Of a DNA stretch of 64,000 bases, positions 3,194 through 8,414 are shown piece by piece. The stretch comes from Iphinoe sp. HA4291-MV1 (GTDB taxonomy: Bacteria; Cyanobacteriota; Cyanobacteriia; Cyanobacteriales; Nostocaceae). The stretch is from positions 83,728 through 147,727 of the forward strand of contig JAHHHH010000007.1 in NCBI GenBank assembly GCA_019359415.1, written 5' to 3'. Position 1 is the stretch's first letter. Each line of letters opens with the position of its first letter. The notes under the pieces were generated by a model. That model was given only the letters and a program-made list of their open reading frames with translations. It ran no database searches and was not told the origin of the DNA. A program made the position numbers and the translations under genes.

Positions 3194-4408
3194 CTATTGA
3201 GGCTTATGATCGAGGCGAATCGCTTGCTCTAGAGCTAATTTTTCTCTGGCTCTACGAGCATATGGCTGTAATTTTGTGAGATTCCAGCCTGTAATTATAC
3301 TCATATCTTCCAAATTCATTCCCTTCATTAACATTTCTACACACCATGTCTGTTGAGCTTGCTTAATGACTGGCTGTTGCCCTTCTGGTGTTAATAATTC
3401 CTCAGTTAATATTTGCCAGCGCTGTTGTATTTCTACCTCTGAAATTGGCATTCCATCATCGTTGAGAAATAATGCAGAGTGGTTATCTTTTCGACCTTTT
3501 AACCATTGAGTTAAGGGATTGCGAGTATAAGAGCCATAGCGCTTACCCATGATCCACTGATTAACTGGAACTTGTCGAATAGCACCCTGAGTGATTTGCA
3601 ATAAGTGCTGGTTGGCATTACTAATTCGGTGAGTTCGCTCCAAATTCACAATTTCTTCTGGATATAAACCTGCTCCAAACAAAACATACATAAGAGCATA
3701 ATCTCGTAGTCCTGATTTTTTGGCTCTTTGCAAAATCAAGTGGACTAAATTTGCTGGTAAATCTACCACTTTTTCTGTCGTAATAGACTCATTGTTGACT
3801 TGAGGTGAGGATTGTGTAGCTACCTTTAAAAACAGTGCCATCAAATTTTCCAAAAACTCATCTCTATCATGCCAAAGTTCATGAAATTCACTGGTAAACT
3901 CAATCACGGCATACCCCAACAACATACTATTGAGTAAACTTGCCAGCTTTTGAGCCGACAATTGCGTGTGTAATTGCTCACGTTCCATTACTATTGCTAA
4001 ATATTCAGCAACATAGTAATTAGCTTGAGTTATGGTTCTTCCTAGTGCCTGACGATTTTCTACTGGATATTTTCCTGCCTCACCGACCATAGAACGTACT
4101 AGTTCAGGAACCTGTTCTAGAGCCTCTAATCGGTCTTCGCAGTAATCTTTGAGAGCTTGGTAAACACTGGTCGTTTGATTTGCTTGCATTTTTAAAGATT
4201 CACCCAGTTCTTTAAACACTGGCGATTCGGAAATGACCGCCAGAACCAATCCGTGCTTATTACCAAATTGCCGAAATAGCGTCACTTCATTAACTTTTGC
4301 TAATTCTGCGACTGCCTTTGTCGTCGTCTCGGTAATTCCTTGAGCCGCGAATAACTCCATTGCTGCATGAATCAGTCGCTGTCGCGTTGTCATTGTTTCA
4401 CCAGACAT
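3194..4408 (-). CDS. TetR-type regulator fused to a degenerate tyrosine-recombinase-like domain
   Basis: Residues 1-50 form a TetR DNA-binding domain (RQRLIHAAMELFAAQG, then TTKAVAELAKVNEVTLFRQF). Residues about 60-200 look like a TetR ligand/dimer domain. Residues about 220-395 follow the layout of an integrase catalytic domain: LRDYALMYVLFGAGLYPEEIV, a middle region, WCVEMLMKGMNLEDMSIITGW and PYARRAREK. The catalytic residues are mostly lost: the first Arg is Tyr in GLYPEE, and the HxxR box reads QAQQ. A recombinase function is therefore unlikely; the domain may serve dimerisation or DNA binding. At 404 residues it is twice the usual TetR length. It is divergent from a desaturase gene and starts 8 bases from a palindrome, suggesting autorepression and control of membrane lipid unsaturation, as known for other TetR regulators of desaturases. 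Confidence 0.8.
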   Translation of the reverse strand: MSGETMTTRQRLIHAAMELFAAQGITETTTKAVAELAKVNEVTLFRQFGNKHGLVLAVISESPVFKELGESLKMQANQTTSVYQALKDYCEDRLEALEQVPELVRSMVGEAGKYPVENRQALGRTITQANYYVAEYLAIVMEREQLHTQLSAQKLASLLNSMLLGYAVIEFTSEFHELWHDRDEFLENLMALFLKVATQSSPQVNNESITTEKVVDLPANLVHLILQRAKKSGLRDYALMYVLFGAGLYPEEIVNLERTHRISNANQHLLQITQGAIRQVPVNQWIMGKRYGSYTRNPLTQWLKGRKDNHSALFLNDDGMPISEVEIQQRWQILTEELLTPEGQQPVIKQAQQTWCVEMLMKGMNLEDMSIITGWNLTKLQPYARRAREKLALEQAIRLDHKPQ

Positions 4409-4415
4409 AAGTTAA

Positions 4416-4438
4416 AAGTGCAAGTATCACTTGCACTT
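4416..4438. promoter_or_regulatory. Operator candidate 1 for the TetR-type regulator
   Basis: A perfect palindrome: AAGTGCAAGT, spacer ATC, ACTTGCACTT. It begins 8 bases upstream of the regulator start codon, inside the 151-base gap between the divergent genes. Size and symmetry fit a TetR dimer site, and the position suits autoregulation. Confidence 0.7.
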
Positions 4439-4464
4439 CAATTTTACCTTTGCTAAACTGAAAA

Positions 4465-4483
4465 ATGTAAGTAACACTTGCAT
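4465..4483. promoter_or_regulatory. Operator candidate 2, desaturase side
   Basis: A second, slightly imperfect copy of the same palindrome: ATGTAAGT, spacer AAC, ACTTGCAT (one mismatch between arms). Its centre is 47 bases from that of site 1 and about 85 bases before the desaturase start codon. Shared half-site ACTTGCA supports recognition by the same protein. Confidence 0.65.
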
Positions 4484-4559: not shown

Positions 4560-5408
4560 ATGACAATAAACTCAGATGCGACTGTTGCTAAGCAGTCACT
4601 GGCTCTGAGCTGGAGCAATGTGGCATTTTTCGGTACAGTTCATGCTTTGGCAATGCTTGCTCCTTGGTACTTTTCTTGGTCTGCGTTGGGAGTAATGATA
4701 TTCCTGCACTGGTTGTTTGGCAGTATTGGCATCTGTTTGGGATATCACCGACTTTTAACTCACCGAAGTTTATCTGTGCCAAAGTGGTTGGAATATGCGA
4801 TCGCTACCTTGGGAGCACTTGCTATGCAAGGAGGACCAATCTGTTGGGTAGCTGGACATCGGCTGCATCATGCACATACAGAGGACGCAGATAAAGATCC
4901 CTACTCTTCCCAGCGTGGTTTTTGGTGGAGTCATATGCTTTGGATTTTTTACCTACGTCCAGATTTTCTTAACTACGAAACATACAAACGATTTGCTCCT
5001 GAATTAGAGCGCGATCCATACTATCGTTGGCTAGAGCGCTACTTCTTACTGCTTCAAATTCCTGTTGCTGTTTTATTGTATGCTGTGGGTGGATGGTCTT
5101 TTATCGTCTATGGAGTTTTTCTCAAGTCAGTATTACTCTGGCATAGCACTTGGTTTATCAACTCTGCGGCTCACTTACGCGGTTACCGTCGTTTCCAGTT
5201 GAAGGACAACTCTCGTAATCTTTGGTGGGCAGCTATCCTAACTTATGGAGAAGGTTGGCATAATAATCACCATGCTCACCCAAATGTAGCAAAAGCCGGA
5301 TACCATTGGTGGGAAGTAGATATGACTTGGTGGGCAATTAAAATATTGCAAACTCTGGGTTTAGCGAAGAAAGTTGTGATGCTTCCAACGCCAAAAGCAG
5401 AAGTTTAA
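4560..5408 (+). CDS. desC: Acyl-lipid/acyl-CoA delta-9-type fatty acid desaturase
   Basis: Integral membrane di-iron enzyme that introduces a double bond into saturated acyl chains. The three histidine boxes are present: HRLLTH (about residue 62), HRLHHAHTE (about 98) and HNNHHAHP (about 235). Several hydrophobic segments separate them. The order and spacing match the DesC/stearoyl-CoA desaturase branch, and 282 residues is normal. The reading frame extends upstream to 4503, but ATG 4560 is preferred because AAAGGAAAG precedes it. It is transcribed divergently from the TetR-fusion gene, with paired palindromes between, so repression by that protein is likely. Regiospecificity cannot be read from the sequence. 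Confidence 0.88.
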   Translation: MTINSDATVAKQSLALSWSNVAFFGTVHALAMLAPWYFSWSALGVMIFLHWLFGSIGICLGYHRLLTHRSLSVPKWLEYAIATLGALAMQGGPICWVAGHRLHHAHTEDADKDPYSSQRGFWWSHMLWIFYLRPDFLNYETYKRFAPELERDPYYRWLERYFLLLQIPVAVLLYAVGGWSFIVYGVFLKSVLLWHSTWFINSAAHLRGYRRFQLKDNSRNLWWAAILTYGEGWHNNHHAHPNVAKAGYHWWEVDMTWWAIKILQTLGLAKKVVMLPTPKAEV

Positions 5409-5572: not shown

Positions 5573-6262
5573 ATGGACACCATAACACTCACTGATCACC
5601 ATCTTTTGTGTCTTTTACAACTGGCTAGCCCAGCTTTACCAGTGGGAGCTTATAGCTATTCTGAAGGATTAGAAACGCTGGTGGAGAATAGCACAATTGA
5701 TAACCAAGCAGCTTTACAGCACTGGTTAAAAGCAGAACTGCGTTACGGCGCAATTCGTTTAGAGGCGGCGGTGATGGTACGAGCTTTTCAATCTGTGAAG
5801 GTGGGTGATTTCAAGGCGCTATCATATTGGAATATGTGGTTATCTGCTGTGCGGGAAACGGAAGAATTACGCGCTTCTAGCTGGCAAATGGGGCGATCGC
5901 TAATCCGCTTACTTGCAGAATTACAACCACAACTTGTAGCTATTGTCAATACTGTTGGTCATCCTTGCAATTATGCAATTGCTTTTGGCATTGCGGCTGC
6001 TCATTGGGATATCAATATAAAAGCAGCATTACTAGGATATCTGCATAGTTGGGCAAGTCACATGGTCACTGTTGGGGTAAAGCTAATTCCTTTGGGACAA
6101 ACAGCGGGACAGCAGTTATTGCTGGAGTTACAAGAATTGCTGAGTGATGCAGTTGAAGAGATTATAGAGTTGGAGGATGAGGATTTAAGTTGTTGTAGTT
6201 GGGGTTTGTCGTTGGCGAGTATGAGACATGAGACACTTTATACAAGGCTATTTCGGAGTTGA
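5573..6262 (+). CDS. ureF: Urease accessory protein UreF
   Basis: Part of the UreFG(H) complex that loads nickel into urease. The N-terminus carries the family signature [21 protein letters not shown], followed by [10 protein letters not shown], and the protein ends with the characteristic [13 protein letters not shown]. At 229 residues it is full length and all-helical, as expected. ureG follows after 32 bases on the same strand, forming a two-gene unit. The urease structural genes and ureE/ureD are not in this window, consistent with the scattered urease genes of some cyanobacteria. Confidence 0.93.
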
Positions 6263-6294: not shown

Positions 6295-6903
6295 ATGACT
6301 ATGACTGCGAGTGCTTTTCGAGTTGGTGTTGCTGGTCCGGTGGGGTCGGGTAAAACGGCTTTGGTTGATGCTTTGTGTAAGGCGATGCGTGATGAGTATC
6401 AAATTGCCGTCGTGACGAATGATATTTATACGCAAGAGGATGCTCAATTTTTGGTGCGTTCTCAAGCTTTGGTAGGCGATCGCATTCTGGGTGTGGAAAC
6501 TGGAGGTTGTCCTCATACGGCTATTCGGGAAGATGCTTCAATGAATTTGGCAGCAATTGAACAGTTGGAGGTGCGTTTTCCAGATTTGGATTTGGTATTT
6601 TTAGAAAGTGGTGGTGATAACTTGGCGGCTACTTTTAGTCCTGAGTTAGTAGATTTAACAATTTATGTTATCGATGTTGCTGCTGGTGATAAGATTCCCC
6701 GTAAAGGTGGTCCTGGAATTACTAAGTCTGATTTGTTGGTGATTAATAAAACTGATTTGGCTCCCTATGTCGGCGCTGATTTAAGTGTGATGGAACGAGA
6801 TGCTAAAAAAATGCGTGGGGAAAAACCTTTTATTTTCACGAATTTGAAAACGAAGGAAGGATTGGCAGAGATTATTCAGTTTGTGGCTACAAATATTTGC
6901 TGA
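6295..6903 (+). CDS. ureG: Urease accessory GTPase UreG
   Basis: A SIMIBI-class GTPase that carries nickel and powers urease maturation. The P-loop GPVGSGKT lies near residue 14, the nickel-binding CPH motif in [12 protein letters not shown], a switch motif in ESGGDNL and the guanine-specificity motif NKTD near residue 145. The 202-residue length is standard. A second ATG four codons... is not needed: the frame begins MTMTAS, so initiation may be at 6295 or 6301. It is the second gene of the ureFG unit. About 280 bases without a gene follow. Confidence 0.95.
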
Positions 6904-7448: not shown

Positions 7449-8414
7449 ATGACTCACCACATCCTCAAAGCCACCAAGAAAACCGTGCATCTTGGTGGAT
7501 TCTCTCATCTTTTAGAACCAGCACTCACTGTTGACTCTGGCGACACAGTTGATGTAGAAACATACAGTGGTTACTACGTTTACGACAAAGCACCACCTGA
7601 GTTTCTCACACCTACATTTCTTGATATTTGCCAAAATCTTACCCCAGAACGCAAAGTTGCAGCAGGACCACATTTGCTGACTGGACCAATTTATGTACGG
7701 GGTGCGGAACCTGGAGATGTTTTGGAAGTAAAACTAGAAGCAATAACACCCAGTTTACCCGTTGGTTTTAACGCGATTCGTACAGGTTGGGGAGCATTAC
7801 CACATCAGTTTTATCAACCAGCTTTGAGATTTATTCCTCTTGATTTAGAAAATAAAATTACAGAATTTCCAATTGGTAGTGGTATAAAAATTCCCCTCAA
7901 ACCCTTTTTTGGTATCTTGGGTGTCGCTACTACAGAAGCATCCCGAAACTCAATCCCTCCTGGTCATTATGGTGGTAATATTGATAACCAGGACCTGCAA
8001 GCCGGTTCTAGAATTTTTTTGCCGATTTTTGTTCCTGGCGCTTTATTTTCTATCGGTGATGGACATTCAGCACAAGGAGATGGTGAAGTTAATGTTACCG
8101 CAATCGAGACTTCAATGAACGGCACGATTCAGTTAAAACTTCGCAAGAATTTACAATTGACAATGCCAATTGCCGAAACTCCTACAGATATTATCACGAT
8201 GGGATTCGGTCAAACATTAGATGAGGCTTTAGAACTGGCTTTAAAAAATATGATTGATTTCTTAGAACGCTTCATCAATTTGTCACCTGAAGATGCTTAT
8301 GTATTGTGTAGTTTAGCTGTAAACTTTCGTATCACCCAAGTTGTCAACAGTCCGCAAAAAGGTGTTCATGGAATGCTACCAAAGTCAATTTTGCCTAAAG
8401 CAATGGAACTATAG
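7449..8414 (+). CDS. Acetamidase/formamidase family protein
   Basis: A metal-dependent amidohydrolase of the FmdA/AmdA family, which splits formamide or acetamide to ammonia and the acid. Supporting motifs are TGPIYVRGAEPGDVLEV near residue 80, PGHYGGNID near 180, GDGHSAQGDGEVN near 205 and EDAYVLCSLAVNFRITQVV near the C-terminus. At 321 residues it is a typical single-domain member. Substrate specificity cannot be assigned by eye. The ATG follows a weak purine stretch. The stop codon lies inside the left edge of a dispersed repeat (8411-8487). Confidence 0.85.
   Translation: MTHHILKATKKTVHLGGFSHLLEPALTVDSGDTVDVETYSGYYVYDKAPPEFLTPTFLDICQNLTPERKVAAGPHLLTGPIYVRGAEPGDVLEVKLEAITPSLPVGFNAIRTGWGALPHQFYQPALRFIPLDLENKITEFPIGSGIKIPLKPFFGILGVATTEASRNSIPPGHYGGNIDNQDLQAGSRIFLPIFVPGALFSIGDGHSAQGDGEVNVTAIETSMNGTIQLKLRKNLQLTMPIAETPTDIITMGFGQTLDEALELALKNMIDFLERFINLSPEDAYVLCSLAVNFRITQVVNSPQKGVHGMLPKSILPKAMEL

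Follow-up and report, generated by a model that had tools for sequence, protein, structure and literature searches.

How might a domain of tyrosine recombinases come to serve in an ordinary transcriptional regulator? The question is raised by a gene in a 64,000-nucleotide stretch of DNA (the window) from Iphinoe sp. HA4291-MV1 (assembly GCA_019359415.1, contig JAHHHH010000007.1, positions 83,728 to 147,727 of the forward strand), a cyanobacterium with a 7.36-Mb draft genome whose nearest named relatives are Brasilonema, Tolypothrix, and Scytonema. An original prediction, made from the sequence alone, placed at 3194..4408 a TetR regulator fused to a dead tyrosine-recombinase-like domain; these coordinates are correct, and the strand, which was not given, is minus. 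Counting the window's own, our study identified 143 distinct full-length fusions. Many cyanobacterial lineages have retained this unusual arrangement beside a desaturase gene, where the recombinase-derived half perhaps helps to hold the regulator on two neighbouring DNA sites. The fusion represents a widely shared bacterial case in which an enzyme domain of mobile DNA now forms a component of an ordinary regulatory protein.

The two halves of the fusion and its active site

The reading frame starts with ATG and runs uninterrupted through 404 amino acids and a stop codon. Residues 1-200 (3809..4408, minus strand) had been assigned to TetR, and Pfam and the structure model agree: a helix-turn-helix at residues 12-58 is followed by a helical domain of the ligand-binding type, both of which are traits of this family. 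The C-terminal half comprises residues 212-404 (3197..3775, minus strand), of which residues 221-385 score above the Pfam cut-off for Phage_integrase (PF00589), so that both the sequence similarity and the fold of this catalytic domain are present. The original prediction had proposed the integrase catalytic fold for residues of about 220-395 and had left it open to refutation by a structure prediction; the model, compared with known structures, matches the tyrosine-recombinase fold. The N-terminal core-binding domain of these enzymes is absent, and the TetR half stands in its position, according to both Pfam and the model. The median isoelectric point is 9.0 for the C-terminal half (5-95% range, 6.7-9.4) and 5.3 for the TetR half.

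The register of the catalytic residues (first Arg at 249, HxxR box at 349-352) was set by profile alignment to XerA, and residues were counted in the 143 distinct full-length fusions (165 before identical ones were dropped; incomplete fusions excluded). The window's protein has Tyr at position 249, within GLYPEE as predicted, while Ser is found in 113 of the 143 and Arg in four. Its HxxR box is K349-Q-A-Q352; the loss of this box had been recognized correctly, but the reading "QAQQ" was off by one residue. Position 349 is never His (0/143), and position 352 is Gln in 112 fusions and Arg in 24, the latter mainly in lineages distant from that of the window and often within "QARHTW" or "QARQTW", an apparent relic of the RHT that active enzymes carry. 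The window's protein further has W375 and Y383; position 383 is Tyr in 131 fusions and Phe in eight, and since its spacing to the GH/GW motif is one residue shorter than in XerD, its assignment to the nucleophile position is uncertain. The beta-hairpin region of the catalytic Lys is short and gapped in the alignment, and the position of this Lys is not fixed residue by residue. Six residues (R278, P298, W331, Q350, W355, and D400) are identical in all 143 fusions.

The term "dead" is therefore supported by these counts for the first Arg and the HxxR box. That the domain still works as a recombinase or nuclease is very improbable: the Tyr near the nucleophile position and the four fusions with both Arg together (L044, L153, L212, and L220) would fit such an activity, but the HxxR His is missing throughout, each of the two Arg is present in a minority (4/143 and 24/143), and an active recombinase was rejected on the finding that no fusion has a complete catalytic set (0/143). 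The four fusions with both Arg, all of them without the His, might be either relics or reversions. The least probable explanation of all is that a sequencing or annotation error joined two separate genes; the halves do lie in different frames in a few draft genomes (e.g., L181, L184, L186, and L189), but such an error is ruled out by the 143 distinct intact fusions, which include examples from multi-megabase contigs and one from an annotated plasmid record. For the several draft genomes with a fusion split over two frames, L185 being a further case, sequencing error and real decay are both possible.

The divergent desaturase and the paired operators

A fatty-acid desaturase gene (PF00487, 3.8e-21) lies at 4560..5408 on the plus strand, divergent from the fusion gene, and is presumed from synteny to be its target. 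Homologues could have shown two separate genes in place of the fusion; instead, at 142 of 142 loci (two sets of 62 and 80, with some contigs in both), one regulator gene stands divergent to a homologue of this desaturase, and it is fused in all of them except L060 and L061, which are TetR-only orthologues. Among 45 further loci, 39 have the desaturase beside the regulator, divergent in 37 and on the same strand in two from one genus (L179 and L180). The remaining six are two C-terminal pieces at a sequence edge (L183 and L190) and four members of a separate TetR clade (L197-L199 and L201). The regulator and the desaturase are the only genes common to all of the 84 loci with larger, unequal flanks. 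The same pair is present on the 29-kb mobilizable plasmid pP742403 of Gloeothece citriformis PCC 7424 (L239:1-9236), annotated as "fatty acid desaturase" and "TetR/AcrR family transcriptional regulator"; with so plain a label, the recombinase domain is easily overlooked.

Two palindromic candidate operators, as would be expected next to the own gene of a TetR regulator, are conserved in the divergent region. Box 1 (4416..4438), a perfect 10-bp inverted repeat AAGTGCAAGT-ATC-ACTTGCACTT conserved in relatives, lies 7 bp upstream of the regulator start codon; box 2 (4465..4483), ATGTAAGT-AAC-ACTTGCAT, lies at a conserved spacing of 47 bp from box 1, and the two were detected as a direct repeat of 27 nt with this spacing. 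Boxes were counted in 157 unique intergenic regions; identical regions and loci without a desaturase were excluded, and L179, L180, and L202-L206 (second views of L181, L184, L186, L189, and L188) were omitted. There are two boxes in 150 regions and one in seven, against 0.008 boxes per region in the shuffled-region control. The median spacing in the two-box regions is 47 bp (interquartile range, 46-47), with 47 bp in 83 regions, 46 in 34, 48 in 11, and from 43 to 85 bp in the remaining 22; each box varies far more in its distance from the start codon of the adjacent gene (the regulator for box 1, the desaturase for box 2).

A putative desaturase promoter (4431..4459, plus strand) would consist of a -35 element TTGCAC inside box 1, a 17-bp spacer, and an extended -10 element TGC-TAAACT. 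A plain consensus promoter scan of the region gave no site, and the promoter rests on conservation: the spacing between box 1 and a TA...T hexamer is the same in 129 of the 157 regions (154 if a 1-bp shift is allowed), and TG precedes the hexamer in 119, so box 1 probably holds the -35 element. The source genome contains five perfect GYAAGTNNNACTTRC sites, two at this locus and three inside open reading frames (ORFs), and with up to one mismatch the pattern occurs at 78 places, versus 46 for the reversed control. A genome-wide regulon was rejected, as no perfect site lies outside ORFs elsewhere in this genome; the only two such sites being here, the protein appears to act locally, on a single divergent gene pair. 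The proposed reuse of a recombinase fold in a transcription factor controlling a desaturase is thus supported, as a candidate relationship, by the fold model, the divergent synteny, the conservation of palindromes that overlap a promoter-like site, and this distribution of sites. Such a target would probably bear on membrane fluidity in cyanobacteria.

Several other features were observed. A one-mismatch operator-like site recurs in the source genome at an exact spacing of 516 bp (G000:C31:27876, 28392, and 28908), which may mark a repeat of 516 bp. The pair on pP742403 adjoins genes for a protein with the N-terminal domain of the orange carotenoid protein, an Ssl1498-family light-harvesting-like protein, and a fasciclin-domain protein, a group that is perhaps a photoprotection cassette. 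In the window, a DUF29 protein (PF01724; 2640-3182) is encoded directly downstream of the fusion gene and convergent with it. Further along are an ORF at 5573-6262, a putative UreF for which NCBIfam gave no match, UreG at 6295-6903 (TIGR00101, 371 bits), and a formamidase-family protein at 7449-8414 (PF03069).

Spread, ancestry, and the second box

When 193 genomes from this family were searched with the protein, 191 gave a match, stronger than 1e-70 in 147 and only weak and TetR-like in 44, so the gene is common but patchy. Among the matches listed (292 genomes of the phylum and 388 of the class), near-full-length ones come from many families of the class, and among those listed for the 292 phylum genomes, the best from other classes is no better than 1e-8. 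In a tree of the TetR domain (72 rows, with the separate TetR clade as outgroup), the TetR-only clade f27 lies near the base, and the TetR-only L060/L182 and L194 are nested within the fusions. Three changes are required, which one gain and two losses would fit; the tree program warned that f27 and the outgroup are long branches joining at the base, and the TetR-only state of f27 may therefore also be a loss.

Regarding the source of the added domain, the C-terminal half has no further match in its own genome below an E value of 6 and none in phage records at 1e-5. When this half was searched against 40 genomes chosen as lacking the fusion, 11 matched at E values up to 0.5. Stand-alone tyrosine recombinases of clade f27 (L229-L233) account for the five best, at 1.7e-8 to 7.2e-7; their genomes also carry a TetR-only orthologue, and in the two that were inspected, L230 and L231, the motifs are intact (GLRAQEL, GKGSKPR, TPHQFRHSF, LLGH, and RYTQR). 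These recombinases score 35 bits, less than XerA in the PDB (43.9 bits), and we therefore claim no donor.

What the domain adds could be judged by a natural comparison with the TetR-only orthologues, which have this neighbour and operator too. Box 1 is common to them and the fusions, and recognition therefore probably needs no more than the TetR half. Two boxes are present in 140 of 141 regions beside fusions, in three of nine beside TetR-only genes, and in seven of seven beside broken or incomplete copies; the difference between fusion and TetR-only regions gives 4e-8 in Fisher's test, which ignores ancestry. In L194, a separate domain loss, box 2 has been lost as well.

Possible roles of the domain and known systems

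We lean modestly towards a local TetR-type repressor of the divergent desaturase, in which the dead recombinase half would be an accessory contact module on two operators. The repressor, perhaps of the FadR kind, would repress the desaturase gene and probably its own by binding one operator over the -35 element and another near the presumed start of the desaturase transcript, and it may release the DNA on binding acyl-CoA or acyl-ACP; its TetR half resembles the acyl-CoA-binding FadR. The C-terminal half, by its sequence a domesticated catalytic domain without the core-binding domain or the catalytic Arg and His, might link the TetR dimers bound at the two operators, much as recombinase domains make contact within a synapse, or it might grip the promoter DNA between the dimers and so tighten repression. 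C-terminal segments of recombinases take part in synapsis, and it is our tentative suggestion that a catalysis-free domain has been reused for such contacts, coupling TetR dimers about 47 bp apart across the desaturase promoter. If so, this would be a bacterial repressor working as a frozen, non-cutting recombination synapse, whose domain and second operator would be expected to be gained and lost together.

It is important to consider the observations that weigh against this contact module. First, the structure: the TetR half is modelled with moderate confidence only, and the model does not fix the relative position of the halves. The likeness to FadR is not special, as the drug-binding regulators MexL and QacR score equally, and the FadR equivalog NF053878 of NCBIfam gives 21.3 bits versus a cut-off of 200. 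Second, the selection: in 12 close pairs, dN/dS is 0.10-0.23 for the C-terminal half, 0-0.10 for residues 1-60, and 0-0.19 for residues 61-200; dN is higher in the C-terminal half than in residues 1-60 in all 12 pairs, and dN/dS in 11, being equal in one. The C-terminal half is thus under purifying selection, which counts in favour of the module, but it is less constrained than the DNA-binding domain. Third, the boxes: outside the main class their spacing is 43-53 bp in most loci and reaches 58-85 bp in five. Strict helical phasing is thus not maintained, and part of the spacing is accounted for by the intervening promoter. Fourth, the link to the domain: five of the six one-box TetR-only loci belong to the single clade f27, so this link is confounded by ancestry; f27 retains apparent box 2 remnants and may thus have lost both the domain and box 2, and its member L195 scores as two-box. 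The TetR-only L060 and L182 lost the domain and retain both boxes at 47 bp, the seven regions beside broken or incomplete copies retain both, and the fusion L178 has one box only. The pattern is in part what bridging predicts, and it is not decisive.

The main rival of the contact module is extra DNA reading like that of MrpR, in which the recombinase domain would recognize a sequence of its own, near the TetR boxes or away from them, and so broaden specificity with no bridging of dimers. This is possible, if somewhat doubtful: the core-binding domain, which MrpR retains, is absent here, box 1 is retained by the TetR-only orthologues, and in the consensus, which covers the interval starting 5 bp ahead of box 1 and ending 10 bp past box 2, the only one in which sites were sought, nothing stood out apart from the palindromes, the promoter-like site, and A/T-rich flanks. 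It is unlikely that the domain stays off the DNA and binds a partner protein or a ligand, modulating the TetR half. The loss of most catalytic Arg and His, which contact DNA in active relatives, would suit that role, as would the unusual, strongly conserved block around RQVPxNQWIMGKRYGSYxxNPLTQWLKSRK; the conserved Arg and Lys of this block suit nucleic acid too, however, and the desaturase is the only partner gene present in all 84 loci.

Among TetR proteins, MadR, which is reported to regulate desaturase genes in response to acyl-CoA, and DesT, another acyl-CoA-responsive regulator of desaturase genes, are similar in role to the preferred repressor; neither is known to have a recombinase domain. 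FadR of Thermus and Bacillus, an acyl-CoA-responsive repressor of fatty-acid degradation, has none either. XerA, XerH, and Cre have the core-binding domain and the catalytic residues, whereas the fusion lacks the former and most of the latter. No description of a TetR-recombinase fusion, or of TetR control of a cyanobacterial desaturase, was found in the literature searched (titles and abstract openings). The statement that no example had been described stands for the fusion to TetR; it does not hold for dead recombinase folds in regulators, of which two reports provide cases. MrpR of phage SPbeta is a dead tyrosine recombinase acting as a repressor, and its authors consider such recruitment probably more widespread (PMC10516654). 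MrpR/YopR keeps the core-binding domain, has no TetR half, and is a phage lysogeny repressor, whereas the fusion is a presumed regulator of a lipid gene; SroF of phage phi3T is, by its entry titles, a candidate for the same group. The DUF3504 proteins (ZMYM2-4, QRICH1, KCTD1, and WOC) are domesticated Crypton recombinases of eukaryotes and similarly have a recombinase-derived domain from which most catalytic residues are gone; the proteins that carry it are often transcription regulators containing further DNA-binding domains (PMC3212892). They differ in being eukaryotic and in their partner domains, and DUF3504 and the TetR-fused domain were probably domesticated independently.
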